The notes under the pieces are model-generated. The model was not told where the DNA came from. It saw nothing but the letters and a program-made list of their open reading frames with translations, and ran no database searches. From Burkholderia pyrrocinia (GTDB taxonomy: Bacteria; Pseudomonadota; Gammaproteobacteria; Burkholderiales; Burkholderiaceae), in the NCBI RefSeq assembly GCF_003330765.1, contig NZ_CP024903.1:1860001-1924000 (forward strand): a DNA stretch of 64,000 bases, read 5' to 3'. Positions 16,797-33,819 of the stretch are shown here, piece after piece; position 1 is the first letter of the stretch; every line of letters starts with the position of its first letter. The position numbers and the translations under genes are program-made.

Positions 16797-16833
16797 GACG
16801 TTGGCCCGATTCGATGACGAGGTGTGGTGCGAC

Positions 16834-17550: not shown

Positions 17551-17605
17551 GCCGTCTCCTCGTTCTTGCGTGGCGCCGGTGCGCCGTATGCCCTTGCCCG
17601 TGCGA

Positions 17606-18403: not shown

Positions 18404-18477
18404 GGTCGGACTCCTTGCAGGAAAGATACGGATCGGTCAGGCCGCCCGCGCGCGCATGCGCGGGCCGTGCCCGTGAT

Positions 18478-19284: not shown

Positions 19285-19370
19285 GCTGTCTCCTGTGTCG
19301 AATTCTCACGCCCGTCCCGCGCGGGATCGCGGCGCCTTGTTGAATGGCCGACCAACCTCATGCGGAGTCG

Positions 19371-19402
19371 AGTATAGGCTCTGTTGAACGGTGGTTCAAC
19401 AG
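19371..19402 (-). promoter_or_regulatory. Promoter and TetR operator (site A) of the arginine transport/aruH operon
   Basis: On the minus strand TTGAAC (19399-19394), 17 bases, then TATACT (19376-19371). The perfect palindrome CTGTTGAAC-N4-GTTCAACAG covers 19381-19402, that is, the -35 box and most of the spacer. The core TTGAA-N6-TTCAA recurs at three other promoters in this window. The tetR gene begins 120 bases to the right, so its product is the obvious candidate repressor. Confidence 0.82.
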
Positions 19403-19461
19403 TTTTAAAAAAATCCGGAGCAAGGGTTTTCGCGGGTTTCGCGACGCTTTCGACGGTGCAA

Positions 19462-19491
19462 TTGAACAAGCGTCCGGCACTCCCCTATAAT
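19462..19491 (+). promoter_or_regulatory. Promoter of the tetR gene
   Basis: TTGAAC-N18-TATAAT, with a perfect -10, about 30 bases before the start codon. Only one half of the TTGAA-N6-TTCAA motif is present here, so strong autorepression is not obvious. Confidence 0.65.
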
Positions 19492-19522
19492 CGGTGCCAT
19501 GACGATTCCGTAAGGTCACCAC

Positions 19523-20179
19523 GTGAAAAAGACTCCTGGCACGGCACCGGTTCAGACGCGCAGCCGCGGCATCCGAGAAACACCCGCGGTGCGTCAGCAA
19601 TCGATCATCGACGCGACGATGCGCTGCATCGCGCGCTACAGTTACTCCGAGACCACGATCGACCGCATCTGTGCGGAAGCGAAGGTGTCGCGCGGGCTGA
19701 TCAACCATCATTTCCAGTCGAAAGACGAACTGATGGCGCAGACCTACAAGCGGCTCGCGACCGACCTGCTCGACGTGTCGCGCGCGGCGGCTGCGAACGC
19801 GACGGGCCCGGAGGAAAAGCTCGACGCGATCATCAAGGTCTGTTTCGCCGCACCGGTGTTCGCGCCGAAGAACGTGAAGGTCTGGCTCGGCTTCTGGAGC
19901 GTCGCGCACAGCGACCCGGTGATCCGCAAGGCGCACAAGGAGCTGTACAGCGGCTACCGGCAGGCGCTGAAGAAACTGTTCGACCAGATCGCGGAAGTGC
20001 GCGGCGGCACCGTCGACAGCGATCTCGCCGCGCTGACGCTGACGGCCGTGATCGACGGCTTCTGGCTGGAGCTCGCGCGCGACCCGACGTCGTTCACCGC
20101 GGAAGACGCGCTGACGAGCTGCCTGCGCGTCGTCGATACGTTCCTGCCACCGCCGAAAGCGACCCGCAAGCGCGCGTAA
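19523..20179 (+). CDS. TetR-family regulator, BetI-like
   Basis: A 218-residue regulator. The N-terminal helix-turn-helix spans about residues 25-70, with TTIDRICAEAKVSRGLINHHFQ as the recognition region (the NHHF is the TetR YYHF-type signature); the C-terminal part has the BetI/TetR_C_6 look, with VWLGFWSVA. BetI itself represses glycine betaine synthesis and responds to choline. Here the ligand is probably an intermediate of the arginine or CoA pathway (inference). The start is a GTG at 19523 with TAAGG upstream. It stands divergent from the aruH operon and next to the palindrome that recurs at 27524, 33067 and 33135. Confidence 0.93.
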   Translation: MKKTPGTAPVQTRSRGIRETPAVRQQSIIDATMRCIARYSYSETTIDRICAEAKVSRGLINHHFQSKDELMAQTYKRLATDLLDVSRAAAANATGPEEKLDAIIKVCFAAPVFAPKNVKVWLGFWSVAHSDPVIRKAHKELYSGYRQALKKLFDQIAEVRGGTVDSDLAALTLTAVIDGFWLELARDPTSFTAEDALTSCLRVVDTFLPPPKATRKRA

Positions 20180-20217
20180 CGCACGCAAGCGCCGCGAGGC
20201 ATCCCGCGGCGGAAACG

Positions 20218-20240
20218 ACGGCCTCGCCGCGCGAGGCCGT
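20218..20240. terminator. Bidirectional hairpin between tetR and aruI
   Basis: ACGGCCTCGC-CGC-GCGAGGCCGT, a 10-base stem between two convergent genes. Confidence 0.65.
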
Positions 20241-20248
20241 TCGCGCTT

Positions 20249-21862
20249 TCAGGCCACGCGCATTTCGATCAGGTACGGCGCATCGTGCGCGGCCGCTTCG
20301 CTCAGCGCACCGGCAAGCGATACGCCCTCGTCGACCCGCTGCGCGCCCCATCCGTACGCCCGCGCGATCGCGACGAAATCCGGCGTGTGCAGATCGACGC
20401 CGACCGGCTCGACGCCGCCGTCGACCATCGCCCGCTTGATCTCCCCGTACCCGCCGTTGTTCAGCAACACGACGATCACGCGCGCGCCGTGCTGCACCGC
20501 GGTGCCGAGTTCCGCGAGCGTGTACTGGAAGCCGCCGTCGCCGGCGATGCACACGACCGGCCGCGAACGGTCGCCGAGGCTCGCGCCGACGGCCGCCGGC
20601 AGCCCGTAGCCGAGCGAGCCGAACCCCACCGACGCGTTGAACCAGCTGCGCGGCCGCGGCGCGGCGAAACCGACGTTGCCCGCGTAGACGACACGCGTCG
20701 AATCGCCGACGATCGCGGCGTCGGGCAACGCGTCGCGCACGCTGTCGAGCAGCGCGAGGTCGCGCCGCATCTCGTCGTTCAGCTCCTGCCGCGCGGCCGC
20801 GCGGCACATCGCCGCGCGCTCGATGCCGTCGCCTTCCGCGCGCGCCGGCACATCGGCCGGCACATCGGCCGGCCAGCCGCGGCGCAGCGCGCGCAGCGTT
20901 TCGCCGACATCGCCAAGCAGCGGCAGCGCGGGCACCGCATTGCGGCACAGTTGCTGCGGATCGATGTCGATCCGCACCAGCGGCGCGGGCATCGCGAAAC
21001 TGCGCGTCGCGTACAGGTCGTAGTCGGTCGGCCCGAGTTCGGTGCCGAGCGCGACGATCAGATCGCTGTCGCGCATCAGCGCGCGCACGGCGTCGCTCGA
21101 TGCCGACCAGGCGATGCCAAGCGGATGCGCGGGCGGCAGCACGCCGCGTCCGTTGATCGTCATTACGACCGGCGCGTCGAGCGTCTCGGCAAGCCAGCGC
21201 ACGTCGTCGGCTGCGTCGAGCGCGCCGCCGCCCGCGAGGATCAGCGGCGCGCGCGCGGCCAGCGCCTTCGCACGAAATGCATCGATGCCGCCGGCCGGCG
21301 CGGGACCGGGCGCGATGCGCGCCGGTGAGGCCGGCACGGGCGGCAACGCATCGGCAGGCGCCGCGAGCACGTCGAGCGGAATCTGGATATGCACGGGGCG
21401 CGGGCGGCCGCCCGAAAACACCGCGAATGCACGCGCGATCGCCTGCGGCAGCGCGTCGGCGCGCGGCACCGTGTAGCTGAACGCGGCGACGTTGCCCGCG
21501 AACGCATGCTGGTCGGGCAATTCGTGCAGATGGCCGTTGCCCGAGCCGATGTCGCCGGACGCGTTGACGCTCGACACGACCAGCATCGGGATCGAATCCG
21601 CATACGCCTGCGCCATCGACGTCGCGATGTTCGTCATGCCGGGCCCGGTAATGACGAAGCACACGCCGGGCTTGCCGGTCGCGCGCGCATAGCCGTCCGC
21701 CATGAATCCAAGGCCCTGCTCGTGGCGCGCACTCACGTGGCGCAGCGCGCTGCCGGCCAGCCCGCGATACAGCTCGATCGTATGCACGCCGGGGATGCCG
21801 AACACCGTGTCGACGCCGTATGCGGCGAGGAGTTCAACGAGGTACATGCCTACTGTTTTCAT
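20249..21862 (-). CDS. aruI: 2-Ketoarginine decarboxylase-like ThDP enzyme
   Basis: A 537-residue thiamine-diphosphate enzyme of the acetolactate synthase/decarboxylase superfamily. E48 in RHEQG activates the cofactor; the C-terminal ThDP motif starts at GDGGFQYTLAEL and ends in NNGGYG. The segments SGNGHLHELPDQ and GEIKRAMVDGGVEPVG resemble 5-guanidino-2-oxopentanoate decarboxylase (AruI), which makes 4-guanidinobutyraldehyde from 2-ketoarginine. The nearby AruH homologue supports this assignment. It is the last gene of the operon beginning at 27493, 51 bases after the MarC gene. The start ATG at 21860-21862 has GGAAACC upstream. A benzoylformate or oxalyl-type decarboxylase is less likely. 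Confidence 0.85.
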   Translation of the reverse strand: MKTVGMYLVELLAAYGVDTVFGIPGVHTIELYRGLAGSALRHVSARHEQGLGFMADGYARATGKPGVCFVITGPGMTNIATSMAQAYADSIPMLVVSSVNASGDIGSGNGHLHELPDQHAFAGNVAAFSYTVPRADALPQAIARAFAVFSGGRPRPVHIQIPLDVLAAPADALPPVPASPARIAPGPAPAGGIDAFRAKALAARAPLILAGGGALDAADDVRWLAETLDAPVVMTINGRGVLPPAHPLGIAWSASSDAVRALMRDSDLIVALGTELGPTDYDLYATRSFAMPAPLVRIDIDPQQLCRNAVPALPLLGDVGETLRALRRGWPADVPADVPARAEGDGIERAAMCRAAARQELNDEMRRDLALLDSVRDALPDAAIVGDSTRVVYAGNVGFAAPRPRSWFNASVGFGSLGYGLPAAVGASLGDRSRPVVCIAGDGGFQYTLAELGTAVQHGARVIVVLLNNGGYGEIKRAMVDGGVEPVGVDLHTPDFVAIARAYGWGAQRVDEGVSLAGALSEAAAHDAPYLIEMRVA

Positions 21863-21913
21863 AGGGTTTCCATCTTCAGGTCAGGTTTCAGGATCGTACG
21901 CCGGCCACCGCCG

Positions 21914-22552
21914 TCAGTGCGCGAGCCCCGGCAGCAGTTCGCGCACGCCTTGCGCGAGCATCTGGAACGCGATCGCGGTCAGCACGATGCCCGACAGCCG
22001 CTCGACCAGCGTCCTGCCGATCTCGCCGAGCCGCCGGCACCACGACGCCGAGCACGCATACGTCAGCCCGATCACGCCCGCATGCAGCACGCAGGCGGCG
22101 CTCAACGCGAGCAGGTCGGCCGGCGTATGAAAGCGCGTCGCGGTCGTGATCACGAGCGACATCACCGCGCTGCCGATCGACAGCGGGAAGATCAGCGGCA
22201 CCGCGATGAAGTTGCGCCATTGCGCGTATTCCAGCTTGGCCGCCCCGCCGCTGCGTTCGTCGTTGGCCGTGCCGCGCATCATCGGGATCGACCACAGGCA
22301 CAGCACGAGGCCGCCCGTCAGCGTCAATGCGCCGAGCGTCAGGCCGAGCATGCGCAGCAGGAACTGCCCGCTCCATACCGCGCCGACCATCAGCGTCGCG
22401 ATCCACGCGAACAACCTCAGCGCAATCTGCCGCTGCGTCGCGTCCGGGAAATGCCCCGTCACCGCCGCGTACATCGGGATCGCGACGGGCGGACAGAACA
22501 GCGTCAGCAGGCCCGTCAGGAACAGCAGCACGTCGCTCGACGTCAGGGTCAT
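21914..22552 (-). CDS. MarC-family integral membrane protein
   Basis: A 212-residue protein with about six hydrophobic segments and the N-terminal CPPVAIPMY and VPLIFPLSIGSAVM motifs of the MarC (UPF0056) family. The function of the family is unknown; transport of a small molecule has been suggested. Its place between a flavoprotein and aruI, in an operon headed by a polyamine-type importer, hints at export or tolerance of a pathway intermediate (inference). I used the ATG at 22550-22552; a GTG three codons upstream is an alternative. Confidence 0.85.
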   Translation of the reverse strand: MTLTSSDVLLFLTGLLTLFCPPVAIPMYAAVTGHFPDATQRQIALRLFAWIATLMVGAVWSGQFLLRMLGLTLGALTLTGGLVLCLWSIPMMRGTANDERSGGAAKLEYAQWRNFIAVPLIFPLSIGSAVMSLVITTATRFHTPADLLALSAACVLHAGVIGLTYACSASWCRRLGEIGRTLVERLSGIVLTAIAFQMLAQGVRELLPGLAH

Positions 22553-22625
22553 CGCTCGCACTCACAAGCGGTCGGGTGGATGGTGTGGCAGGCGGCATCG
22601 CGGCCGGGGGCCTCTGCTCAATCGT

Positions 22626-23354
22626 TCAGTCCTGCGCGGCTTCCTGCGCCGCCCGCTCGCGCGGCCGCATCTCGCCGTCGAAATCGTCGAGCGACGGGAA
22701 CGCCATCGGCGCGAGCCGATCGAGGTGCGTCAGATAATCGTCGTATCGTTCGAGCACGGCCGCGCGCTCGGCGTCGCCGATATACGGCACGTGATAGCCG
22801 ACGAACGACGGCAGCACGTCGAAGCCCGCATAGCCGAGCGTGCCGCGCAGCACGTGGCGCAGCATCAGGTCCATCTCGCCGTGCACGCCGTCGGCGCCGA
22901 ACATGTAGTCGCGGCCGCCGCACGTATAGGCGAGCAGCGCGCGCTTGCCGCGCATCCCGCCGCGATCGTAGAAGCGCACGCCGCCATACACCTTGCCCGA
23001 CACGAGCACGCGGTCGATCCAGCCTTTCATGATCGCCGGCACCGAGCACCAGAACAGCGGGAAGCTGAGGATCAGCAGGTCGCACGCGGCCAGCTTATCG
23101 AGCTCCGCGGCAATGTCCGGCGCGATCGCATGCGCGGCGACGTTCTCGCGCTGCTCCAGCGCATAGACGAGATAGTCGGGACTCTTCCGCACGCCGAAAT
23201 CGGCCGCGCTCGCGACCGGATTCCATTGCATCGCGTACAGGTCGGACACCGTCACGGTATGCCCCTGCGCTTCGAGCGTAGTCACCGCGCGGTGCAGCAT
23301 CGACGTCGTGAACGACTGCGGCTCGGGATGGGCGTGAACGATCAGGACTTTCAT
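22626..23354 (-). CDS. NAD(P)H dehydrogenase (quinone)/flavodoxin-fold oxidoreductase
   Basis: A 242-residue protein of the NQO/MdaB-like family. VLIVHAHPEPQSFT forms the FMN/FAD phosphate loop, and LILSFPLFWCSVPAIMKGWIDRVL is the conserved flavin-ring segment. It would transfer two electrons from NAD(P)H to a quinone or similar acceptor. GGAG lies 14 bases before the ATG. Its role in the operon is not clear: it could remove a reactive by-product, or regenerate an electron acceptor. Confidence 0.88.
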   Translation of the reverse strand: MKVLIVHAHPEPQSFTTSMLHRAVTTLEAQGHTVTVSDLYAMQWNPVASAADFGVRKSPDYLVYALEQRENVAAHAIAPDIAAELDKLAACDLLILSFPLFWCSVPAIMKGWIDRVLVSGKVYGGVRFYDRGGMRGKRALLAYTCGGRDYMFGADGVHGEMDLMLRHVLRGTLGYAGFDVLPSFVGYHVPYIGDAERAAVLERYDDYLTHLDRLAPMAFPSLDDFDGEMRPRERAAQEAAQD

Positions 23355-23387
23355 GGTGCTATTTTTCTCCGCAACACAACGTTGAAA

Positions 23388-24182
23388 TCAGACAGACCCG
23401 GCCGCGCGCCTGCGCAGCAGCGACAGGCCGATCGCGACGCAGGTCGCGACGAGCAGCAGCGTGGACACCGACGCGATCGCCGGATCGACGTTCTCGCGCA
23501 TCCCGTCCCACATGCGGCGCGGCAGCGTGTAAACGCTCCGGCTCGAAATGAACAGCGTGACGACCAGCTCGTCCCACGACAGGATGAACGCGAAGATGGC
23601 GGCCGACAGCACGCCGGGCCGGATCGACGGCAGGATCACATAGCGCAGCGTCTGCGCGAGGTTCGCGCCGAGGCTGCGCGACGCCTGCTCGATCCGCAGG
23701 CCGACAGTCGCGAGCGATGCGGATACGGCCACCACCACGTAAGGCACCGACAGCACGACGTGCGACAGGATCACGGCCGGATAGCTGTCGAGCATGCCGA
23801 ACTCGCCCCACAGCCGGTAGAACGCGAGCGCCGACACGATCGGCGGCACGATCAGCGGAAACAGGATCACGCCGCGCACGAGTTCGCCGCGCCGCGACGC
23901 GACCTTCCACAGGCCGATCGCGCACAGCGTGCCGAGCGTGACCGAGATCGCCGACGATACAAGCGCGATCAGCCCGCTCTGCAGGAAGCTCGACATCCAG
24001 CCGTCGTCGTCGAGCAGCACGCGGTAGTGCTTGAGCGACAGCGCGCCGTCCGGCATCGACAGGTAGTCGCTCGGCGTCAACGACACGGGCACCGATACGA
24101 GCAGCGGCAGCATCAGGAACAGGATCGCGGCCCACGCGATGCCGACCACCAGCGCGCGGCCGGCCGTCAGTCTGGTCTTCAT
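23388..24182 (-). CDS. Polyamine/opine-type ABC transporter permease (PotC-like)
   Basis: A 264-residue inner-membrane protein with about six hydrophobic segments and the EAA-like loop EQASRSLGANLAQTLRYVILP. The group imports putrescine, spermidine, opines, phosphonates or other cationic compounds. CGGAGGAA precedes the ATG. It follows PotB-like gene by 21 bases. The substrate may be 4-guanidinobutyrate, agmatine or a betaine, given the co-regulated enzymes (inference). Confidence 0.92.
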   Translation of the reverse strand: MKTRLTAGRALVVGIAWAAILFLMLPLLVSVPVSLTPSDYLSMPDGALSLKHYRVLLDDDGWMSSFLQSGLIALVSSAISVTLGTLCAIGLWKVASRRGELVRGVILFPLIVPPIVSALAFYRLWGEFGMLDSYPAVILSHVVLSVPYVVVAVSASLATVGLRIEQASRSLGANLAQTLRYVILPSIRPGVLSAAIFAFILSWDELVVTLFISSRSVYTLPRRMWDGMRENVDPAIASVSTLLLVATCVAIGLSLLRRRAAGSV

Positions 24183-24203
24183 CTTCGATTCCTCCGGTCG
24201 GAT

Positions 24204-25079
24204 TCAGCGCGCGCCGAACAGCTCGCGCAGGTCGACGAAACGCGCAAGCAGCGCGAGCGCGGCCAGGATCGACGCCAGCAGCAGCGACGCGAGCGCCGCC
24301 CCGCCGCCCCAGTTCACGAGCTGCAGGATCTGCGTGCTGATGTATTCGGCGATCATCACCGTGCGGCCGCCACCGAGAATCACCGGCGTCACGTAGAAGC
24401 CGAGCGAGAAGATGAACACGAGAATCGCCGCACCGACGATGCCCGGCCGCGTCTGCGGGAAGTACACCTTGCGGAACGTGACGAATGCGCCCGCGCCGAG
24501 CCCCTGCGACGCGCGCGCGAACTGCGGATCGATGCCCTTCATGTTCGCGTACAGCGGCAGCACCGCATACGGAATCATGAAATGGATCATCCCGATCACG
24601 ACGCCGACCTCGTTGCGCATCAGCGGCAGCGGCGCGTCGATCAGCCCGACGCGCATCAGCAGCGTATTGACGAGCCCCTGCTCGCCGAGCAGGAACAGCC
24701 ACGAGAACGCGCGCACCAGCACCGACGCCCAGAACGGCACGAGCAGCCCGAACATCAGCGCCATCCGCTGGCGCGGCCCGACGTGCGCCATCGCATACGC
24801 GATCGCGTAGCCGAGCGCGACCGAACAGACGGTCGTGACCGCGCACACGCGCAGCGTCGTCCACAGCACGCGATGCACGCCGTGATTGCCGAGCAGCCGC
24901 GCGTAGTTGTGCAGCCCCGGCTCCGGCACGGCGAAGCCGAGCCACAGCACGCGCACGAGCGGATACACGTACAGCACGATCAGCACCGCGAGCAGCGGCA
25001 CGACGAGCAGCCAGTAGCGGTCGGCTTTCGCGCGGCCGAGCGGGGCAGCGCCCGCGACGGGAGAAGACAGGGTATTCAT
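24204..25079 (-). CDS. Polyamine/opine-type ABC transporter permease (PotB-like)
   Basis: A 291-residue permease with six or so membrane segments. The loop ASQGLGAGAFVTFRKVYFP is the EAA motif. The first membrane segment, WLLVVPLLAVLIVLYVYPL, follows a short basic N-terminus. The ribosome binding site is weak, so coupled translation with the binding protein gene 25 bases upstream is likely. Confidence 0.92.
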   Translation of the reverse strand: MNTLSSPVAGAAPLGRAKADRYWLLVVPLLAVLIVLYVYPLVRVLWLGFAVPEPGLHNYARLLGNHGVHRVLWTTLRVCAVTTVCSVALGYAIAYAMAHVGPRQRMALMFGLLVPFWASVLVRAFSWLFLLGEQGLVNTLLMRVGLIDAPLPLMRNEVGVVIGMIHFMIPYAVLPLYANMKGIDPQFARASQGLGAGAFVTFRKVYFPQTRPGIVGAAILVFIFSLGFYVTPVILGGGRTVMIAEYISTQILQLVNWGGGAALASLLLASILAALALLARFVDLRELFGAR

Positions 25080-25104
25080 GGCGTCACGCTCACGAGGCGG
25101 CGGC

Positions 25105-26214
25105 TCAGGACGACATCAGGTCGGTGTATTGCGCGAGCGTCGCTTCGTAATGCTGCGCCCACCATTCCGGATTCACCTTGCACTGCTTCGCCCAGTTCTC
25201 GGGCGTGCCGGGATTGTCGGCGCGCAGCGTCTGCGGCACGGCGGCCGTCGCGGCCGGCGTCACGGGCCCGTTGCCGAGCAGCGACAGCAAACGCACCTGC
25301 GGCTCGACACCCTGCACGAACTTGATGAACTGCCACACCGCGTCGCCCGACGGATTGTTCTTCGGCACGCCCCACACGTCGCAGGACGCGAGCCCCTGCT
25401 CCCACGTATAGCGGAACCGTCCGTTGCTTTCGCGCTGCAGCACGTTCGCACGCGTATGCCAGATGCACGCCATGCTGACTTCGCCGTTGCGCAGCAGTTG
25501 CAGGCTGTCCGCGCCCGAATCCCACAGCAGCACGTTCGACTTCAACTCCTTGAGCTTCTTCATCGCGCGCGGCACGTCGATCGGATAGACCTTGTCCTTG
25601 TCGACGCCATCGGCCATCAGCGCGGCTTCGAGCGCGCCGCCCATCCACTTCCACAGTCCGCGCTTGCCCGGAAACTTGCCGACGTTCCAGAAATCGGCCC
25701 AGTTCTTCGGCGGATTCGCGCCGTATTTGCGCGCGTCGTACACAAGTACGTAGCTCAGCAGGTACGACGGCACGCCGAAATCCGATGCGAGCCCCGGCAG
25801 CGTATTGCGGCCCACGACCGAATAGTCGATCGGCCGCAGGAACCCCTGCTTGCCGAGCTTGATCGCCGCGAAGCCGTCGAGATCCATCACGTCCCAGATC
25901 ACGTTCCTGTTCTCGACCATCGCCTTGATCTTGCCGTCCTCCGGCGACGAGTCGTAGCCCATCCTGATCCCGCTTGCCTTCGTGAACGGGTCCATATAGG
26001 CGGAGCGGAACGCGGAGCGCGCTTCGCCGCCCCATGCGCTGAGCACGATCTCCTTCGGGTTCGCGGCCAGCGTGTCCTTCGCGCCCATCGACAGCAGCGT
26101 CGGCGCGATGCCGGCGGCCGCGCACAGCCGCAGGAAATCGCGGCGGCGCTGCGATGTCGCCGGTTGAAGATCGCGCGCTTGGTCGAGCAGGTCTTGCAGA
26201 TATCGGTTCGTCAT
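25105..26214 (-). CDS. Extracellular solute-binding protein (PotD/F-like) with Tat-type signal
   Basis: A 369-residue family 1 solute-binding protein. Residues 23-31 read RRRDFLRLC, a twin-arginine motif, before a hydrophobic stretch and a likely cleavage site near residue 50 (TLAAN). The mature protein opens with IVLSAWGGEARSAF, typical of polyamine and spermidine-type binders. The ATG at 26212-26214 follows GGAGGAG and was preferred to the upstream in-frame ATG. The ligand should be a cationic compound; no acidic polyamine-binding set could be checked without an alignment. Confidence 0.9.
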   Translation of the reverse strand: MTNRYLQDLLDQARDLQPATSQRRRDFLRLCAAAGIAPTLLSMGAKDTLAANPKEIVLSAWGGEARSAFRSAYMDPFTKASGIRMGYDSSPEDGKIKAMVENRNVIWDVMDLDGFAAIKLGKQGFLRPIDYSVVGRNTLPGLASDFGVPSYLLSYVLVYDARKYGANPPKNWADFWNVGKFPGKRGLWKWMGGALEAALMADGVDKDKVYPIDVPRAMKKLKELKSNVLLWDSGADSLQLLRNGEVSMACIWHTRANVLQRESNGRFRYTWEQGLASCDVWGVPKNNPSGDAVWQFIKFVQGVEPQVRLLSLLGNGPVTPAATAAVPQTLRADNPGTPENWAKQCKVNPEWWAQHYEATLAQYTDLMSS

Positions 26215-26326
26215 GGTGTCTCCTCCAGGCTGGGCAGCGCCCGCACGCGTCTCGTCGTTTCCGGGCACCGGTGAATCGGCCGGCGACGACGGCGCTCGCC
26301 ACGTCGCCGGTGCATCGTTCGGCGTG

Positions 26327-27493
26327 TCAGTCCGCCGCGATCCGGCAAGTCGCGTCGCGCTCCCACTGCACGAACACGTCCATGCCGGCGCGCGGCGACG
26401 CGAGTCCGCGCCAGGCGGGCACGTCGGCGGTCACGCGGCCGAGCGCCACGGTCTCGATGTCGAAGCGGTACGACGAGCCGAAATAGCTCCAGTGACGAAT
26501 CCGCCCGACCACTTCGTTGTGCGCGCCACCGCAGGACGTCGCCGATACGGCAACCTTCTCCGGCCGCAGCGCGAACAGCAGCGCGTCATCCGGCCGCGCG
26601 CCGCACGCGGGCGCGACGAAGCGCGCATCGCCCACACGGTAGTGCGTCGTGTCCGCGTCGCCGCCGAGCGCGACGCCTTCGATGAAGTTGCTCTTGCCGA
26701 GGAAGTCGGCGACGAAGCGGTTGGCCGGCTGCTCGTACAGCCCGTCCGGCGTGCCGATCTGTTCGAGATGGCCGTCGCGCATGATCGCGATCCGGTCCGA
26801 CATCGACAGCGCCTCCTCCTGATCGTGCGTGACGAACAGGAAGGTCGCGCCGAGCCGCTCGTGCAGCGCCTTCAGTTCGACCTGCACCTCGCCGCGCAGC
26901 TTGCGGTCGAGCGCGCCGAGCGGCTCGTCGAGCAGCACCAGATCGGGATCGAACACCAGCGCGCGCGCGATCGCCACGCGCTGCTGCTGGCCGCCGGACA
27001 GCTGGCGCGGCAACCGGTCCGCGAGATGGCCGAGCCGCACGAGATCGAGCGCGGCCTTCACGCGCTTCACCGCGTCGGGCCCCTTCTGCTTGCGCACCAT
27101 CAGCGGATACGCGACGTTCTGCTCGACCGTCATGTGCGGAAACAGCGCATAGCCCTGGAACACCATCCCGAAGTTGCGCTTCTCGGGCGGCAACGCGACG
27201 ATGCTGCGGCCGCCGACGCGCAGGTCGCCGGTGGTCGGGTGCTCGAAGCCCGCGACGATCGTCAGCAGCGTCGTCTTGCCGGAACCCGACGGCCCGAGGA
27301 TCGTCAGGAATTCGCCGCGCGGGATGTCGATCGTGGTTTCCCCGAGCGCCTGCACGCTGCCATAGCGCTTCGACACGCGTTCGATCTGCAACCCCGCGCC
27401 GCTTGCCATGCGCCCCGCCGCTTCCGCGCGATGCGCGTGCGTGCCGGGCCTTCCTTCCTCCACACCTGCCGACGTCTCCATCACCACGCTCAT
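26327..27493 (-). CDS. Polyamine/opine-type ABC transporter ATPase (PotA-like)
   Basis: A 388-residue ABC ATPase: Walker A GPSGSGKTT, signature LSGGQQQR, Walker B LVLLDEPLGALD and, after residue 270, a TOBE-type regulatory domain with FALRPEKVAVS. About 35 N-terminal residues rich in Gly, Ala and His precede the ABC fold and may be dispensable. ATG at 27491-27493, CAGGAGA upstream. It heads the operon ATPase - binding protein - two permeases - flavoprotein - MarC - aruI. Confidence 0.92.
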   Translation of the reverse strand: MSVVMETSAGVEEGRPGTHAHRAEAAGRMASGAGLQIERVSKRYGSVQALGETTIDIPRGEFLTILGPSGSGKTTLLTIVAGFEHPTTGDLRVGGRSIVALPPEKRNFGMVFQGYALFPHMTVEQNVAYPLMVRKQKGPDAVKRVKAALDLVRLGHLADRLPRQLSGGQQQRVAIARALVFDPDLVLLDEPLGALDRKLRGEVQVELKALHERLGATFLFVTHDQEEALSMSDRIAIMRDGHLEQIGTPDGLYEQPANRFVADFLGKSNFIEGVALGGDADTTHYRVGDARFVAPACGARPDDALLFALRPEKVAVSATSCGGAHNEVVGRIRHWSYFGSSYRFDIETVALGRVTADVPAWRGLASPRAGMDVFVQWERDATCRIAAD

Positions 27494-27523
27494 CGTGTGT
27501 CTCCTGGTCGACTCACAATTGGG

Positions 27524-27573
27524 TTGAACGTTCATTTAACAGAACTTATACTATGCCGAAATACGGTCCGCAA
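27524..27573. promoter_or_regulatory. Overlapping divergent promoters with TetR operator (site B)
   Basis: Rightward promoter for the crotonase operon: TTGAAC (27524-27529), 17 bases, TATACT (27547-27552). Leftward promoter for the PotA-like operon: TTGCGG (27573-27568), 17 bases, TATAAG (27550-27545). The motif TTGAA-N6-TTTAA (27524-27539) differs from the common operator at one position; its extended form GTTGAAC-N4-ATTTAACAG resembles site A. It covers the rightward -35 and spacer and the probable leftward start site, so one bound dimer could silence both operons. Confidence 0.75.
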
Positions 27574-27636
27574 GTAGCGGCGACCCTGCCGGCTCCGATA
27601 CACCACCGACACAAACAGTAAGGAGACAGTGAGCAC

Positions 27637-28425
27637 ATGAACGTTGAGGACATCCGAATCGAACGGCACGGCGGCGTCGTGACCCTTCGCCTGAACCGGC
27701 CCGCGAAACGCAACTCGCTCGCGCGGCCGCATCTCGACTTCCTGCGCGACACGCTCGATGCGCTCGCGAACGATCCGGCCGTGCGCTGCCTCGTGCTGAC
27801 CGGCACCGGCAGCGCGTTCTGCGCGGGCGCGGACGTCGACGAGTGGGCCGAGGCCGAGCGCAACGGCGAACTCGACACCTACGGGTGGAGCGAGCGCGCG
27901 CACCGGTTCGTCGAAGCGCTGGCGGCATTTCCGCGCCCCACCGTCGCGGCGCTGAACGGCTCGACGGTCGGCGCGGGCGCCGACATCGGCTTTGCCTGCG
28001 ACTTCCGCATCGCAAGCACGGCCGCGACGCTGCGTTGCGGCTATACGGGAATGGGCTACAGCCCCGACATGGGCGGAAGCTGGTTCCTGCCGCGTCTCGC
28101 ACGGCCCGACGTCGTGCGCCGCTTCATCTTCCTGAACGAACGCTGGCACGCGCAGGACGCGCTCGCAGCCGGGCTCGTGTCCGAAGTCGTCGACGCCGAC
28201 GCGTTCGCGCAGCACGTCGCCGCATTCGCCGCGCGTCTCGCACAAGGGCCGAGTGTTGCGTTCGGCCACACCAAGGCGCTGCTCGCGCAGTCGCTCACGC
28301 ACACGCTTGCCGAGCAGCTGCACGGCGAGCTGGCGGCCTGCGTCGCTTGCGGTCACAGCGAGGACGGCCGGGAAGCGCTTCGCGCGTCGGTCGAAGGTCG
28401 CGCCCCTCTTTTTGTCGGGAGATGA
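27637..28425 (+). CDS. Enoyl-CoA hydratase/isomerase (crotonase family)
   Basis: A 262-residue crotonase-fold enzyme. The oxyanion-hole segments FCAGADVDEW and STVGAGADIGFACD are intact. The classic catalytic pair of glutamates is replaced by GAGADIG and GMGYSPDMGGSWFLPR; the Asp in SPDMGG occupies the catalytic position used by isomerases such as PaaG and dienoyl-CoA isomerase. It may hydrate, isomerise or open an unsaturated CoA ester. First gene of the operon with acyl-CoA dehydrogenase (4 bases downstream) and acyl-CoA synthetase. AAGGAGA precedes the ATG by 11 bases. Confidence 0.88.
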   Translation: MNVEDIRIERHGGVVTLRLNRPAKRNSLARPHLDFLRDTLDALANDPAVRCLVLTGTGSAFCAGADVDEWAEAERNGELDTYGWSERAHRFVEALAAFPRPTVAALNGSTVGAGADIGFACDFRIASTAATLRCGYTGMGYSPDMGGSWFLPRLARPDVVRRFIFLNERWHAQDALAAGLVSEVVDADAFAQHVAAFAARLAQGPSVAFGHTKALLAQSLTHTLAEQLHGELAACVACGHSEDGREALRASVEGRAPLFVGR

Positions 28426-28428
28426 TTC

Positions 28429-29586
28429 ATGGATTTTTCGCTGACCCAAGAACAGGAAATGCTGGTGTCGTCGCTGCGTCAGTTCGTCGAAAAGGAACTG
28501 CAGCCCCATGAATTCGCGGTCGACCGCGCGGACGACGTGCCGCCCGAACTTGCCGATTCGATCCGCCGCAAGGCGCTCGAGCTCGGCTTCTACGCGTTCA
28601 ACATGCCCGAAAGCGCCGGCGGCCCGGGCCTCGACTACGTGACGCAGGCGCTCGTCGAGCGCGAGCTCGGCCGCACGAGCTGGGCGCTGCACGTGTTCGT
28701 CGCGCGGCCGAGCAAGATCCTGATGGCGTGCAAGGGCGACCAGATCGAGCGCTATCTGAAGCCGGCCGTGCGCGGCGAGCGCGTGGACTGCTTCGCGCTG
28801 ACCGAGCCGGGCGCCGGTTCCGACGCGATGGGCATCCGCACGCGCGCGGTGCGCGACGGCGACGACTACGTGATCAACGGCAGCAAGCACTTCATCAGCC
28901 ACGCGGATACGGCCGATTTCGTGATCCTGTTCGCCGTCACCGGCGAGGAGGAAGTGCGCGGCCAGAAGCGCAAGCGCGTGACCTGCTTCCTGATCGACAA
29001 GGACACGCCGGGCATGACCGTGCGGCGCGGCCCGCACTGCACGAGCCTGCGCGGCTATCACCAGTCGGAGATCTTCCTGACCGACTGCCGCGTCAGCGCC
29101 GCGCAGATCCTCGGCGACGAACATCGCGGCTTCGACCTCGCGAACGACTGGCTGACCGCCGGCCGCGTGATGGTCGCGGCCAACAACATCGGCCGCGCGC
29201 AGCGCGCGTTCGAGATGGCCGCCGAATGGGCGGCGACGCGCCAGCAGTTCGGCAAGCGCATCGGCGAATTCCAGGGCACGTCGTTCAAGCTCGCCGACAT
29301 GCAGACCGAGATCCGCGCGGCGGAACTCGTCACGCTCTATACCGCGCAGAAGCTCGACCTGGGCACGATGACCGACGGCGACGCCGCGCTCGCGAAGCTG
29401 CTGGCGACCGAAACGCTCGGCCGCGTGACCGATCATGCGGTGCAGATCTACGGCGGCATGGGGCTGATGGACGAACTGCCGATCGAGCGCTTCTGGCGCG
29501 ATGCACGCATCGAGCGCATCTGGGAAGGCACGTCCGAGATCCAGCGGCACATCCTGTCGAAGGAAATCCTCCGACGCTACAGCTGA
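28429..29586 (+). CDS. Acyl-CoA dehydrogenase (CaiA/gamma-butyrobetainyl-CoA dehydrogenase-like)
   Basis: A 385-residue flavoenzyme of normal length. FAD-binding motifs FALTEPGAGSDAMG and FISHADTADF, the QQFGKRIGEFQG segment and the catalytic glutamate in RIWEGTSEIQR are present. It would introduce a double bond at C2-C3 of an acyl-CoA and pass electrons to ETF. Among acyl-CoA dehydrogenases it looks closest, by eye, to those acting on short chains with a polar end such as gamma-butyrobetainyl-CoA; this needs an alignment. Its gene follows the crotonase gene by 3 bases, an arrangement that points to one pathway. Confidence 0.92.
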   Translation: MDFSLTQEQEMLVSSLRQFVEKELQPHEFAVDRADDVPPELADSIRRKALELGFYAFNMPESAGGPGLDYVTQALVERELGRTSWALHVFVARPSKILMACKGDQIERYLKPAVRGERVDCFALTEPGAGSDAMGIRTRAVRDGDDYVINGSKHFISHADTADFVILFAVTGEEEVRGQKRKRVTCFLIDKDTPGMTVRRGPHCTSLRGYHQSEIFLTDCRVSAAQILGDEHRGFDLANDWLTAGRVMVAANNIGRAQRAFEMAAEWAATRQQFGKRIGEFQGTSFKLADMQTEIRAAELVTLYTAQKLDLGTMTDGDAALAKLLATETLGRVTDHAVQIYGGMGLMDELPIERFWRDARIERIWEGTSEIQRHILSKEILRRYS

Positions 29587-29636
29587 CGCGAACCGTCGCG
29601 CCGGCGTACCCGGCGCGACTTCCGAAAGGACCTTTC

Positions 29637-31763
29637 ATGACCTCCTCTCCCGCAGTCAGGGATCGCCGCGCCGCCGCCGCGGCCAATCTGCACCGGCTGC
29701 TCGATCCGGCCAGCATCGCGTTCGTCGGCGGACGCGGCATCGCCGGCGCCGTGCAGCGCTGTCGCGACTATGGCTATGCCGGCGACATCCGGCTCGTCAA
29801 CCCGAACCATGCCGAGATCGACGGCGTGCGCTGCCACGCGAGCGTCGCCGACCTGCCCGCCGCGCCCGATGCCGTGTTCGTCGCGGTGCCCGCGCGGCAG
29901 GCGATCGACGTCGTGCGTGCGCTCGCCGAACGCGGCGCCGGCGGCGCGATCGTCTATGCGTCGGGCTTCTCCGAGACCGGCGCCGACGGCACCGCGCTGC
30001 AGCAGGCGCTGATCGACGCGGCCGGCGACATGGCCGTGCTCGGGCCGAACTGCTACGGGCTGATCAACGGACTGAACGGCAGCGCGCTGTGGCCGGTCGC
30101 GCACGGCGCGCCGCGCGTCGAATCCGGTGTCGCCGTGATCACGCAGAGCGGCAACCTCGCGTACAACCTGTCCATGAGCGCGCGCTCGGTGCCGTTCGCA
30201 TACCTGGCGAGCGTCGGCAACCAGGCATCGGTCGACATCGCGCGCCTCGTCGACGCGTTCGTCGACAATCCGCGCATCCGCGCGATCGGCGTGCATCTCG
30301 AAGGGCTGAAGGACGTCTGCGCGTTCAGCGAGGCCGCCGCACGCGCGCTCGCGCGCGGCGTGCCGATCGTCGCGCTGAAGAGCGGCACGTCGACGCTCGG
30401 CGCGCAGCTCGCGATGAGCCACACGAGTTCGCTCGCGGGCTCGGACGCGCTGTACGACGCGCTGTTCCGGCGGCTCGGCGTGATTCGCGCGAAAGACCCG
30501 GTCGGCCTCGTCGAGACGCTGAAGCTGCTCGCGATCGCCGGCGTGCCCGAGCGCCGCACGCTTGCCGCGCTCGCAACGTCCGGCGGCGATGCGGGGCTCG
30601 TCGCCGATCTCGGCGACGCGCGCGGCATTGCGTTCCCGCCGGTCGGCGCCACGGGCCGCGATGCGCTCGGCAACGTCCTGCCCGCGTACGCGACGATCGC
30701 GAACCCGCTCGACTTTACGACGACGCCGTGGGGCGATCCCGGCAGGATGCGCGCGTGCTGCGACGCACTGCTGGCCGACCGCCCCGGCGCGGCCGCGATG
30801 ATTCTCGACTATCCGCAGGAAGCGACCGGCGAACGGCCGCTGTGCGATATCGCGGCCGGCGCGTTCGCGGCGTCCGCGCGCCAGCACGGCGTGGTCGGCG
30901 CGGTGATCTCGGTGTTCCCGGAGCTGACACCGCCCGATCACGCTACGCGCATGGCCGCGGCCGGCATTGCGCCGCTGCAGGGGCTCGCCGACGGGATCGA
31001 CGCGATCGGCGCGGCCATGGCCTACGGCGACACGCGCCGCCGCATACTCGACGCCGATGCGCTGAACGCGCTGCCCGTGTTGCGGGCCGGCAATGGCGGC
31101 GGCGCCGCGAAGCTGCACGACGAATGGGCGAGCAAGCGGATGCTGGCCGCGCACGGGCTCGACGTGCCGCCAGCCGAATGCGTCGCGCCCGCCGATGCGC
31201 CGGCTGCCGCGCAGCGGCTCGGCTTTCCGGTTTGCGTGAAGATCGTCAGCGATCGGCTGCCGCACAAGACCGAGGCCGGCGCGGTCGCGCTGAAGCTCGC
31301 GTCGCCCGAGGCCGTCGCCGACGCGGTCGAGCGGATGACCGCGCAAGTCGCGCGTTATGCGCCCGACATCCGCGTCGAGCGCATCCTCGTCGAGAAGATG
31401 GCCGACGCACCGCTGCTCGAACTCATCGTCGGCGTGAAGCGCGAGCCGAACTTCGGTCTCGCGCTCGTGCTCGGCGCCGGCGGCGTGCTGGTCGAGCTGA
31501 TCCGCGACACCGCGACGCTGCTGCTGCCCGTGCGCGAAAACGACGTGCGCGACGCGCTGCTCGGGCTCAAGCTCGGGCCGCTGCTGACCGGCTATCGCGG
31601 GCGGCCGAAGGCCGATCTCGATGCCGTTGTCGCGAACGTGATGGCGATCGCGCGTTTCGCGCAAGCGCACGCGGATACGCTCGTCGAGCTCGACGTCAAT
31701 CCGCTGCTGGCGATGGAACACGGCGCGGTGGCCGTCGACGCGCTGGTCAGGCTCGACGCGTGA
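29637..31763 (+). CDS. ADP-forming acyl-CoA synthetase-family protein
   Basis: A 708-residue fusion. N-terminal CoA-binding domain (DPASIAFVGG onward), two succinyl-CoA ligase-type flavodoxin domains with the phospho-histidine in SHTSSLAGSD, and a C-terminal ATP-grasp domain (about 480-700) with GFPVCVKIVSDRLPHKTEAG. Such proteins form a CoA thioester from an acid, CoA and ATP. Here it would activate the acid that the acyl-CoA dehydrogenase oxidises. The ATG at 29637 follows GAAAGGA. A convergent hairpin ends the operon. Regulation of the CoA pool is another possible role, as some members act as protein acetyltransferases, but there is no GNAT domain. Confidence 0.9.
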   Translation: MTSSPAVRDRRAAAAANLHRLLDPASIAFVGGRGIAGAVQRCRDYGYAGDIRLVNPNHAEIDGVRCHASVADLPAAPDAVFVAVPARQAIDVVRALAERGAGGAIVYASGFSETGADGTALQQALIDAAGDMAVLGPNCYGLINGLNGSALWPVAHGAPRVESGVAVITQSGNLAYNLSMSARSVPFAYLASVGNQASVDIARLVDAFVDNPRIRAIGVHLEGLKDVCAFSEAAARALARGVPIVALKSGTSTLGAQLAMSHTSSLAGSDALYDALFRRLGVIRAKDPVGLVETLKLLAIAGVPERRTLAALATSGGDAGLVADLGDARGIAFPPVGATGRDALGNVLPAYATIANPLDFTTTPWGDPGRMRACCDALLADRPGAAAMILDYPQEATGERPLCDIAAGAFAASARQHGVVGAVISVFPELTPPDHATRMAAAGIAPLQGLADGIDAIGAAMAYGDTRRRILDADALNALPVLRAGNGGGAAKLHDEWASKRMLAAHGLDVPPAECVAPADAPAAAQRLGFPVCVKIVSDRLPHKTEAGAVALKLASPEAVADAVERMTAQVARYAPDIRVERILVEKMADAPLLELIVGVKREPNFGLALVLGAGGVLVELIRDTATLLLPVRENDVRDALLGLKLGPLLTGYRGRPKADLDAVVANVMAIARFAQAHADTLVELDVNPLLAMEHGAVAVDALVRLDA

Positions 31764-31768
31764 AGCAT

Positions 31769-31803
31769 GCCGGCCTGCTCATGGATCGTGTGAGCAGGCC
31801 GGC
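31769..31803. terminator. Bidirectional terminator between the CoA-ligase and porin genes
   Basis: A perfect 13-base inverted repeat, GCCGGCCTGCTCA and its complement, with a 9-base loop, between two convergent genes. Confidence 0.8.
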
Positions 31804-31830
31804 CGTGCCCGGCCCGGGAACGAGCAAGAA

Positions 31831-32961
31831 TCAGAAGTTATGCCGCATGCCGATGCGCGCGGCGGCCTGCGTGCGACTCGTCGACGGCGTGAAGCTGTAG
31901 CCGATCACCGCGTCGACGCCCTGCGATGCGCGCATCCAGTCGACGGCCGCATACACGTCGGTGCGCTTCGACAGCGCATAGTGCGCGCCGAGCGCGGCCT
32001 CGTGCCAGTGATGGCCTTCGAACGTCGTGTACTGGTAGCCCGCGACGAGCGACAGCGGCGCGGTCATCTGGTACAGGCCGCCCGCCTCGTACACGCGCAT
32101 CGTCGACGATTGCCCGTAGCCCTTGAACGTCGTGTTGCTGAAGTCCGCGCTAAGCGTCAGCTTGCCGAGCACGTACGATGCGCCGATCCCGAAGATCGAT
32201 TGCGAATTGATCGCAAACGGCGTCGCGTCGTGCAGGTCGGTGACCGCGCCCGTCGCCGGATCGACGGTCGCGACCGTCTGCCCGAGCATCGACGTCACGC
32301 CCATCTGCGCGTACGGATCGAGCGCCGCGAGCCCGCGCGGCGAATTGAGCCGCGTATAGTTGCCGCCCGTCGAGAAATCGCCGTGCGTATAGGTCGCACC
32401 GACACTCCACGCGCTGCCGTCGTGGAAGCTGCCCGCGTCGTTGCTGAACGAATACATGCCGCCGACCACGAGCCCGTGGAAGCTGTTGCTGACGAACTTC
32501 ACCGCGTTCTGCAGCCGGTCGCCGCTCTGGCGGTCGAAATCGCCGAGGTGCACGCCATAACCGCTGCCGAACGCGCTGACGTTGAACGCCGCCGTGAAGT
32601 CGTACGCGAAGTCGTACTGGTTGCCAAAGGTCAGCGTGCCCCAGTCGTTGCCGAGCCCCACGTAGGCCTGGCGGCCGAACATCGCGCCGCCCTGGTTCAG
32701 CTTGCCGGTGCCGAGCCGGAAGCCGTTCTCGAGCTTGAACACGGCCTTGTTGCCGCCGCCGAGATCCTCGGTGCCCATCAGGCCGACACGGTTGCCGTAC
32801 GACACGCCGTCGTCGAACAGGTACGCATGCGCGCCGCCCGCGTTGTTCACGTAGGTGATGCCGCCGTCGATGATCCCGTACAGCGATACGCTGCTTTGCG
32901 CATGCGCATGGCCCTGAACCATCACCGACATCATGCCGGCCAGCAGGAAGCGTTTCTTCAT
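31831..32961 (-). CDS. Gram-negative general porin
   Basis: A 376-residue outer-membrane porin of the Burkholderia/Neisseria type. The signal peptide ends after AHA at residue 21; the mature chain starts QSSVSLYGIIDGGITY, typical of the family, and ends in RHNF with the terminal Phe used by the Bam machinery. The constriction-loop segment GRQAYVGLGNDWGTLTFGNQ is present. Its promoter carries TetR operator site C, so this porin probably serves uptake of the pathway substrate rather than general permeability (inference). Confidence 0.94.
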   Translation of the reverse strand: MKKRFLLAGMMSVMVQGHAHAQSSVSLYGIIDGGITYVNNAGGAHAYLFDDGVSYGNRVGLMGTEDLGGGNKAVFKLENGFRLGTGKLNQGGAMFGRQAYVGLGNDWGTLTFGNQYDFAYDFTAAFNVSAFGSGYGVHLGDFDRQSGDRLQNAVKFVSNSFHGLVVGGMYSFSNDAGSFHDGSAWSVGATYTHGDFSTGGNYTRLNSPRGLAALDPYAQMGVTSMLGQTVATVDPATGAVTDLHDATPFAINSQSIFGIGASYVLGKLTLSADFSNTTFKGYGQSSTMRVYEAGGLYQMTAPLSLVAGYQYTTFEGHHWHEAALGAHYALSKRTDVYAAVDWMRASQGVDAVIGYSFTPSTSRTQAAARIGMRHNF

Positions 32962-33053
32962 TTCCGGTGTCTCCAGTTTCCGCGAGGCGGATCGATTTTC
33001 GTTGTTCGAGGAACGCCGCCCGCCTGCTTTTTTTCGGCACCGCGGCGCTGGCG

Positions 33054-33082
33054 AGTATAGGTTTCGTTGAATGAATGTTCAA
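33054..33082 (-). promoter_or_regulatory. Porin promoter with TetR operator (site C)
   Basis: On the minus strand TTGAAC (33082-33077), 17 bases, TATACT (33059-33054). The inverted repeat TTGAA-N6-TTCAA at 33067-33082 overlaps the -35 box and spacer in the same way as at site A. The -35, spacer length and -10 are the same as at site A. Confidence 0.8.
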
Positions 33083-33134
33083 TCGATTGATGCGTCGATC
33101 TGCACGGTGTTTACACGCATCGGAAATTTCTTTA

Positions 33135-33163
33135 TTGAAAAAACGTTCAACCCGTCATAACAT
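33135..33163 (+). promoter_or_regulatory. Thioesterase-operon promoter with TetR operator (site D)
   Basis: TTGAAA (33135-33140), 17 bases, TAACAT (33158-33163). The inverted repeat TTGAA-N6-TTCAA at 33135-33150 covers the -35 and spacer. The start codon of the thioesterase gene is 60 bases downstream. Together with site C it forms a divergent control region of about 260 bases. Confidence 0.72.
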
Positions 33164-33222
33164 CGACCGGCAGCCCCGCGGACGACATGCGGGCTCCGTT
33201 CCGAACCTCCGGAGTGCACAGG

Positions 33223-33801
33223 ATGACGACCCACCTCAGCCCCGCCGCCGAGCCGCGCCTGCGCTCGGCCTACGAAGGACAGAAGGCGCGCCCGTACGAT
33301 CCGGCCGCACCGATCGCGACGCCGCTCGAACTGCACCGCTGCATCGTGCAGCCCGAATGGGTCGACTACAACGGCCACATGAGCGAATCGTGCTACCTGT
33401 TCGTGTTCGGCGACAGCAGCGATGCGTTCTTCCGCTACTTCGGCATCGACGACGACTATCGCGAAGCCGGCTGCTCGATCTATTCGGCGGAGACGCACAT
33501 CCGCCACCTGCGCGAAGCGATGCTCGGCGAACCGCTGCGGCTCACGCTGCGGCTGCTCGACGTCGACGACCGGCGCCTGCACGTGTTCCATTCGATGCAT
33601 CACGCGACGACCGGCACGCCGCTCGCGACCGCCGAACAGTTGCTGACCCACGTCGACATGCACGCGAAGCGCTCGGCGCCGTTTCCCGACACGATGCGCC
33701 GCCATCTCGACGCGATTCACACCGAACATGCACGCGCGCCGCGCGAGCCTCATGCCGGCCGCGCGATCGCGATTCGCCGCCCCGCCCCTGCTTCACGCTG
33801 A
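33223..33801 (+). CDS. Hot-dog acyl-CoA thioesterase (betainyl-CoA thioesterase-like)
   Basis: A 192-residue protein with a 4HBT fold. D48 in VDYNGHM is the likely catalytic acid; the VFGDSSDAFFRYFG and ETHIRHLREAMLGEPL segments resemble the betainyl-CoA thioesterases of carnitine catabolism, where the domain is often fused to carnitine dehydrogenase. Here it stands alone. It would release a short polar acid from its CoA ester at the end of the CoA branch. I used the ATG at 33223, with GGAG eleven bases upstream. The C-terminal 30 residues are Arg/Ala-rich and poorly conserved-looking. The aldehyde dehydrogenase gene follows by 18 bases. Confidence 0.85.
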   Translation: MTTHLSPAAEPRLRSAYEGQKARPYDPAAPIATPLELHRCIVQPEWVDYNGHMSESCYLFVFGDSSDAFFRYFGIDDDYREAGCSIYSAETHIRHLREAMLGEPLRLTLRLLDVDDRRLHVFHSMHHATTGTPLATAEQLLTHVDMHAKRSAPFPDTMRRHLDAIHTEHARAPREPHAGRAIAIRRPAPASR

Positions 33802-33819
33802 ACCACGATGGAGCCCTCC

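Follow-up and report, generated by a model that had tools for sequence, protein, structure and literature searches.

BetI-type regulators of the TetR family are the closest described systems to the locus considered here. In Ruegeria pomeroyi, according to PMC12442346, the BetI1 site ATTGACG*CGTCAAT lies over the −35 box, and BetI2, for which control of choline genes is reported, has two palindromes with a common flank, AAACTTGAAC. The present locus lies in a 64,000 nt stretch of the Burkholderia pyrrocinia genome (NZ_CP024903.1, positions 1,860,001–1,924,000; hereafter the window, in whose numbering coordinates are given), where four promoters carry the inverted repeat TTGAA-N6-TTCAA in a gene cluster that includes a TetR-family gene (tetR, 19523–20179, plus strand). 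The four repeats are likely to be operators of this TetR, and the four operons behind them would be derepressed together.

The window TetR shares with BetI the TetR_C_6 domain, a half-site (TTGAAC/GTTCAA) that also occurs at BetI-type loci, and an operator laid over the −35 box. It differs in its recognition helix and its gene cluster and in falling below the BetI cut-offs; the half-sites of its putative operator stand 4 bp further apart, and the genome has a separate true BetI. The protein of 218 amino acids (recognition helix VSRGLINHHF) belongs to the TetR family (TetR_N, PF00440, 53.9 bits against a cut-off of 24) and has the BetI-type C-terminal domain TetR_C_6 (PF13977, 86 bits against a cut-off of 27). 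Both BetI models score it below threshold (TIGR03384, 125.4 against 201.3 bits; NF001978, 116.7 against 118), and the label 'BetI-like' used in a first-pass annotation of this DNA is apt for the C-terminal domain and not for membership of BetI. No betA or betB was seen beside tetR, and the aldehyde dehydrogenase 13 kb off scores below the cut-off for betaine aldehyde dehydrogenase (BADH). The closest solved sequence is PDB 3e7q (E 1.4e-34), from Pseudomonas aeruginosa, with the helix VSVGLINHHY. No publication on the window TetR appeared among the top-listed matches in the open-licence literature.

One operator at four promoters

A pattern search of the window places the repeat at 19384–19399 (site 1, TTGAACGGTGGTTCAA), 27524–27539 (site 2, TTGAACGTTCATTTAA, with one mismatch to TTGAA-N6-TTCAA), 33067–33082 (site 3, TTGAATGAATGTTCAA, which reads TTGAACATTCATTCAA on the minus strand) and 33135–33150 (site 4, TTGAAAAAACGTTCAA), the same positions that the first-pass annotation had given. 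All four operators begin at a −35 hexamer and extend over the spacer. Three of the promoters are TTGAAC-17-TATACT: that of site 1 runs leftward from 19399 to 19371 (−10 box 19371–19376, minus strand), that of site 2 rightward over 27524–27552 (−10 box 27547–27552, plus strand) and that of site 3, the porin promoter, leftward from 33082 to 33054 (−10 box 33054–33059, minus strand). The fourth is TTGAAA-17-TAACAT, rightward over 33135–33163 (−10 box TAACAT, 33158–33163, plus strand). An independent sigma-70 scan, run over all three intergenic regions, gave nothing beyond these four promoters, variants of them shifted in register by one base, and tetR's own promoter; the common geometry, two promoters to a strand, is as had been annotated.

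Written out to 12 positions as TTGAAC-N4-GTTCAA, the operator has 0, 2, 1 and 1 mismatches at sites 1, 2, 3 and 4, respectively. The best copy is indeed the one beside tetR, site 1, which lies within CTGTTGAACGGTGGTTCAACAG. With one mismatch allowed, TTGAA-N6-TTCAA occurs 5 times in the window, where 100 shuffles averaged 0.20 and never exceeded 2; with two allowed, TTGAAC-N4-GTTCAA also occurs 5 times (100 shuffles: mean 0.60, maximum 4). The fifth window match, at 46557, is away from the four promoters. The repeats are more frequent than in the shuffles, and this, with the genome counts given below, agrees with the earlier view that an identical geometry at four promoters is unlikely to arise by chance.

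An additional imperfect operator-like element, GTTGAATGGCCGACCAAC, was picked out by alignment conservation at 19339–19356, just downstream of the site-1 −10 box and 44 bp from site 1 centre to centre. It is nearly invariant in a 22-row alignment, and its counterpart in B. guangdongensis is a one-mismatch match to TTGAA-N6-TTCAA. This element may serve the promoter of the transporter genes as a further operator of lesser strength.

Frequency of the operator in the genome

The whole genome of the strain (3 contigs, 8,004,399 bases) was scanned with the same patterns. The bare repeat has 9 exact copies, 3 of them in the window, and with up to one mismatch it has 111 matches against 37 for a reversed control pattern. 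The bare repeat alone is thus not rare, and it was rejected as a sign of a genome-wide regulon. With the −10 box included (TTGAA-N6-TTCAA-N7-TANNNT), the 3 exact matches in the genome are all in this cluster; at up to one mismatch there are 6, of which 4 are in the window, and the control gives 1. The two outside matches (C1:1647585 and C3:642346) have their mismatch in the −10 box, and none of the six exact bare copies outside the window has an exact −10 box at the right place. As far as the operator plus −10 pattern can tell, the regulon is local. With its −10 box counted in, one operator in one geometry recurs at several promoters and not at unrelated ones, the pattern of a shared regulon, and the scatter over many unrelated promoters that would have spoken against the first-pass annotation was not seen.

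Two further places in the same genome (C2:905413 and C2:1213902; positions 1501–1516 of L002 and L003) have TTGAAG-N4-CTTCAA lying between TTGACT or TTTACT and a −10 box. This layout has the look of MerR-type spacer operators, a class different from that of the four sites.

Conservation and linkage to tetR

Twenty-two crotonase-bearing loci from Burkholderia, Paraburkholderia and Caballeronia, two metagenome-assembled genomes included, were compared; three places fetched a second time (L076 = L034, L074 = L033 and L077 = L032) are not independent evidence. Crotonase identity is 91–96 % in the nearest loci (Burkholderia) and 75–77 % in Paraburkholderia, where the operators are still kept. With the window counted in, site 1 is present at up to one mismatch to TTGAA-N6-TTCAA in all 14 loci that reach that far, and site 2 at up to two mismatches in 23/23, being identical in 21 of these; sites 3 and 4 are each present at up to one mismatch in 18/19. 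In each of the three intergenic regions, conservation is higher in the operator columns than in the others (means 0.995 v 0.874, 0.961 v 0.776 and 0.988 v 0.763; P=2.5e-4, 4.3e-4 and 6.3e-10, respectively), and the −10 boxes likewise exceed the mean conservation of the other intergenic columns.

Of 65 genomes examined in the genus, 21 have an orthologue of tetR (87–100 % identical). The exact operator-promoter is present in 21/21 genomes with tetR and in 1/44 without it, and 58 of its 59 matches fall in the former; the expectation that the sites would be conserved where tetR is conserved was borne out. In a draw of 398 genomes of the family, a match is present in 20/21 genomes with tetR and in 26/377 without; the exception among the former, a Caballeronia genome (G393), has site 1 with one mismatch. 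An order-wide TetR search at E 1e-32 found the protein in 1 of 399 genomes, the strain's own. The linkage assigns the operator to the unit as a whole; with tetR and the cluster found side by side, it does not identify the protein that reads the operator, and co-occurrence was not accepted as proof of the reader.

A Caballeronia locus (L034) is without aruI, the aminotransferase gene and, save for a divergent stretch, the amino-acid transporter. The locus keeps tetR, the genes for crotonase, acyl-coenzyme A (CoA) dehydrogenase, CoA ligase, thioesterase and aldehyde dehydrogenase, and sites 1 and 2, which in this one locus look like the core of the unit.

Candidate reader of the operator

Recognition helices were compared with operators over 54 distinct loci, restricted to the best matches of the TetR search and with three duplicates (L113, L118 and L119) dropped; a site was called at up to 1 of 12 mismatches within 800 bp of the TetR gene. 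Of the 37 loci with an NH[HY] helix, 36 have the spaced form TTGAAC-N4-GTTCAA and none has the compact form TTGAACGTTCAA. The 12 loci with a BetI-type helix have the compact form in 9 cases and the spaced form in none, and of the 5 other loci one has the spaced form and none the compact. These classes were drawn once the loci had been seen. The association extends to the NH[HY] loci less than 50 % identical to the window TetR, 8 of 9 of which have the spaced site. Among TetRs 32–35 % identical with an NH[HY] helix, from two other families of the class, it is present in 4/5 loci (L125–L128, two genera).

A Paraburkholderia genome (G253; L071 and L075) has a TetR 43 % identical to that of the window, with the helix VSRGMINHHF, adjoining a different cluster that includes a Pot-type transporter as well as genes for an aminotransferase and a porin-like protein, both identified by eye. 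Three sites with up to one mismatch occur there in 17 kb, a number reached by 0/200 simulated sequences, and one of them is again TTGAAC-17-TATACT. Relatives of this TetR in three more genomes (80–98 % identical) still have one such site next to tetR, four genomes in all. Two genomes of a Paraburkholderia-like genus (G831, with L115, L121 and L124; G857, with L116, L122 and L123) have three related TetR genes within 30 kb; in both, the helix of one of the three is altered to IARGLIHYHF, and the accompanying site is less good.

A helix-to-operator rule fixed beforehand was then applied to 15 plasmid loci, one per species, chosen by hand from 40 listed of the 93 records with a TetR match. As a general law the rule was rejected: the failures in Mesorhizobium, Agrobacterium rubi and Azospirillum, detailed below, mean that it does not hold across Proteobacteria. 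A different motif, TTATAC-N4-GTATAA, was noticed afterwards at up to one mismatch in 4 of the 15 loci (Ruegeria, Phaeobacter, Ensifer and Rhizobium). All four have a helix beginning VT, and the motif is in none of the other 11 loci and in 0/20 simulated sets; in three of the loci it lies no more than about 200 bp ahead of the TetR gene, and the Rhizobium copy stands one gene upstream. Perfect 6+6 palindromes in the gaps of the 15 loci number 7 at N4, 7 at N6 and 3–5 at most other spacings, against about 1.3 each in shuffles, a count that does not by itself single out N4.

Clusters on marine plasmids of Ruegeria (L140, the R. pomeroyi megaplasmid), Phaeobacter (L143) and Sulfitobacter (L144) have the same neighbours as the left part of the window: an amino-acid-type ATP-binding cassette (ABC) transporter, a TetR, a pyridoxal phosphate (PLP) aminotransferase and a 5-guanidino-2-oxopentanoate decarboxylase. 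The N4-spaced TTATAC palindrome stands in the divergent gap, exact in Ruegeria and with one mismatch in Phaeobacter, and was not found in the Sulfitobacter locus. These TetRs differ in being 30–35 % identical to that of the window and, for Ruegeria and Phaeobacter, in the half-site (TTATAC for TTGAAC) and the helix (VT.GLIRHYF).

Several observations weigh against reading the four sites as operators of the adjacent TetR. The helix classes are post hoc, most of the 37 NH[HY] loci are close relatives, and one NH-helix locus from the other families (L129) is without the spaced site. The loose pattern TTGAA-N6-TTCAA at up to one mismatch also matches 6/12 BetI-class loci (5 of the 9 with the helix ISTGIVSHYF, plus L134). 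Four of these six matches arise because the BetI box contains the pattern; the loose rule does not separate the classes, only the 12-position forms do, and it was discarded. Of the plasmid loci, two alphaproteobacterial NH-helix TetRs (Mesorhizobium and Agrobacterium rubi) are without the spaced site (0/2), and two Azospirillum betI loci are without the compact box (0/2). Site 2 is nearer the compact BetI form (1/12 mismatches) than the spaced form (2/12). The Caballeronia locus L034 is without sites 3 and 4. The acyl-CoA dehydrogenase of the cluster is found in the same 21 genomes as tetR, so co-occurrence cannot separate TetR from another regulator of the cluster. Finally, the substrate of the pathway rests on annotation only.

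The comparison of relatives' helices and sites thus sustains the earlier proposal of TetR as reader within these relatives, and the failure of the helix rule in Alphaproteobacteria limits it. The adjacent TetR is supported as the best candidate reader of the four sites, and its binding to them is predicted from this comparison.

BetI and other rival readers

The true BetI of the genome (C2:407014–407598) passes TIGR03384 and NF001978 with 263.2 and 297.4 bits. Its helix is ISTGIVSHYF, and a compact box, TTGATCGTTCAA, precedes its gene, which is followed by a betaine-aldehyde-dehydrogenase-like gene (a label given by eye). BetI boxes in L072 (4159–4170, the betI promoter of the strain itself), L059, L060, L061 and L066 are often TTGATTGAACGTTCAA-like; such boxes hold the compact palindrome plus a TTGA-N8-TCAA register.

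It is improbable that the four sites are read by this BetI or by some other global regulator, with a different role for the local TetR. BetI has the same half-site, TTGAAC, and site 2, 7.3 kb from tetR, departs from the compact form at one position; the 64 kb contain no other one-mismatch match (expected number 0.03). Against this, the best match to the compact form within 800 bp of tetR has 4/12 mismatches, and the spaced form was found at none of the 12 BetI-type loci; moreover, a relative about 30 % identical is also listed in operator-free genomes, whereas the operator tracks the local tetR. Somewhat less unlikely, though still doubtful, is dual control, with TetR acting at all four sites and BetI also at site 2 through an overlapping compact palindrome. 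The sequence TTGAACGTTCATTTAA is identical in 21/23 loci of Burkholderia, Paraburkholderia and Caballeronia, even at its centre and at its 'mismatch', whereas site 1 has a freely variable centre. Site 2 also resembles the flank-sharing palindromes reported for R. pomeroyi BetI2 in PMC12442346, the systems being likened by their sites. However, the divergent locus L036 has TTGAACGTTTATTCAA, which is better as a spaced form and worse as a compact one, and the centre of site 2 lies in a promoter spacer and may be constrained otherwise. A broader reading is offered only tentatively: in this TetR subfamily operator spacing and half-site sequence may be set separately, with site 2 a composite readable in both spacings. 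BetI and the window TetR have TTGAAC in common at spacings four base pairs apart, and the VT-helix relatives combine the N4 spacing with TTATAC.

It is very improbable that the inverted repeat belongs to an ArsR/SmtB-type metalloregulator, a possibility raised by a locus in another genus (L108), where GTTGAACAATTGTTCAAC, followed after 17 bases by a −10 box, precedes genes that by eye encode an ArsR-like regulator and a cation-diffusion transporter. Of the roughly 20 window proteins annotated from 13800 to 36200, none was seen to be ArsR-like; the operons have a catabolic look, and the sites go with tetR. Equally hard to credit is a reading of the repeats as nothing more than strong −35 boxes (TTGAAC) whose downstream halves arose by chance. 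The promoter of tetR does have TTGAAC without a second half, yet at the four sites both halves of the operator stand out in conservation from the remaining columns, and no exact match to the pattern with its −10 box lies elsewhere in the genome. An exact copy of GTTGAACAATTGTTCAAC, with the −10 box at the same distance, occupies positions 1501–1516 of both L108 and L110, which come from two genomes of that other genus within the family; at L108 it may be a look-alike operator in an unrelated regulator family.

Genes of the cluster

The promoter of tetR, TTGAAC-18-TATAAT without an inverted repeat (19462–19491, plus strand), was found by the sigma-70 scan and coincides with a conserved block. 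Downstream of site 1, a run of minus-strand genes (13802–19284; named from profile matches, the permeases by eye) encodes an amino-acid ABC transporter ATPase (18478–19284), a binding protein of arginine type that is below the cut-off of its best model (17606–18403), two permeases (16834–17550 and 16101–16796), a PLP aminotransferase (14854–16056) and a deacylase distantly like DoeB and far under the cut-off of the DoeB model (13802–14812).

A divergent minus-strand run from site 2 (20249–27535), potG-potF-potH-potI-flavodoxin-marC-aruI with gaps of 21–64 bases, encodes a PotGFHI-like ABC transporter (Pot names partly by eye), a flavodoxin-fold reductase, MarC and AruI, the 5-guanidino-2-oxopentanoate decarboxylase (20249–21862; NF005712, 730 bits, cut-off 500). 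As this run begins at site 2, aruI is outside the site-1 operon. The sigma-70 scan of the site-2 intergenic region found no minus-strand promoter for the run. Besides the crotonase operon, site 2 may control potGFHI, the flavodoxin gene, marC and aruI.

On the plus strand, site 2 precedes genes for a crotonase (27637–28425), an acyl-CoA dehydrogenase (28429–29586) and an ADP-forming acyl-CoA ligase (29676–31763). Site 3 precedes an outer-membrane porin gene (31831–32961, minus strand; a weak PorB match, below cut-off), and site 4, on the plus strand, genes for a 4HBT_2 thioesterase (33187–33801), which is like the C-terminal part of carnitine 3-dehydrogenase and below cut-off, and a PuuC/BADH-like aldehyde dehydrogenase, also below cut-offs (33808–35307). 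The thioesterase stands alone and matches positions 334–494 of the carnitine 3-dehydrogenase model, as if a fusion had been split. The target operons named by the first-pass annotation are right in outline, the four promoters preceding the transporter/aminotransferase, crotonase, porin and thioesterase/aldehyde dehydrogenase genes; its aruH label comes from context only, and the aminotransferase passes no cut-off among the 25 NCBIfam models listed of 100 matched.

Proposed mechanism and significance

A TetR dimer on TTGAAC-N4-GTTCAA would cover the −35 box and most of the spacer and block RNA polymerase; the position of the operator, like membership of the TetR family, most naturally suggests repression by shutting the polymerase out. 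A pathway metabolite would release TetR, and the transporter/aminotransferase, crotonase/acyl-CoA dehydrogenase/CoA-ligase, porin and thioesterase/aldehyde dehydrogenase operons would then come on together; the divergent potGFHI...aruI run may come on too. The tetR gene itself would be transcribed from its own operator-free promoter, and simple autorepression at a canonical operator is not indicated, as that promoter is without the repeat.

Pseudomonads convert arginine by transamination, decarboxylation and oxidation to 4-guanidinobutyrate (the AruH/AruI pathway), and γ-butyrobetaine is turned into carnitine by CoA enzymes. From gene content, the substrate of the present cluster might be an arginine-derived or similar cationic acid; this is a guess and the weakest part of the proposal. 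Transamination, decarboxylation by AruI and oxidation of the aldehyde would give 4-guanidinobutyrate, which would then undergo CoA ligation, dehydrogenation, hydration and thioester hydrolysis; the CoA enzymes would act on it, or on a trimethylammonium analogue, along the lines of the conversion of γ-butyrobetaine to carnitine. Alternatively, the substrate may be a quaternary ammonium acid such as γ-butyrobetaine. None of the top-listed papers matched this cluster, 4-guanidinobutyryl-CoA being listed with polyketide papers.

On a Pseudooceanicola algae plasmid (L142, 2498–5588), a TetR relative stands beside genes for carnitine 3-dehydrogenase, a 3-keto-5-aminohexanoate cleavage protein and carnitinyl-CoA dehydratase. 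On the Rhizobium plasmid locus, a TetR relative is beside an arginine-deiminase-family gene and an aminotransferase. These neighbours fit cationic amino-acid derivatives and are no proof of them.

The cluster is most likely a regulon governed by a local TetR repressor, and as such one more case of a well-known type of gene control. Four, perhaps five, operons are joined into one testable unit, and an operator is predicted for its regulator. Comparison with BetI amounts to a small natural experiment on change of operator spacing in TetR proteins, and if site 2 were readable in both spacings, one operon of the cluster would answer to the local inducer plus choline via BetI. The gene set suggests CoA-dependent use of an arginine-derived or quaternary-ammonium acid, and the inducer of the TetR would name the substrate.

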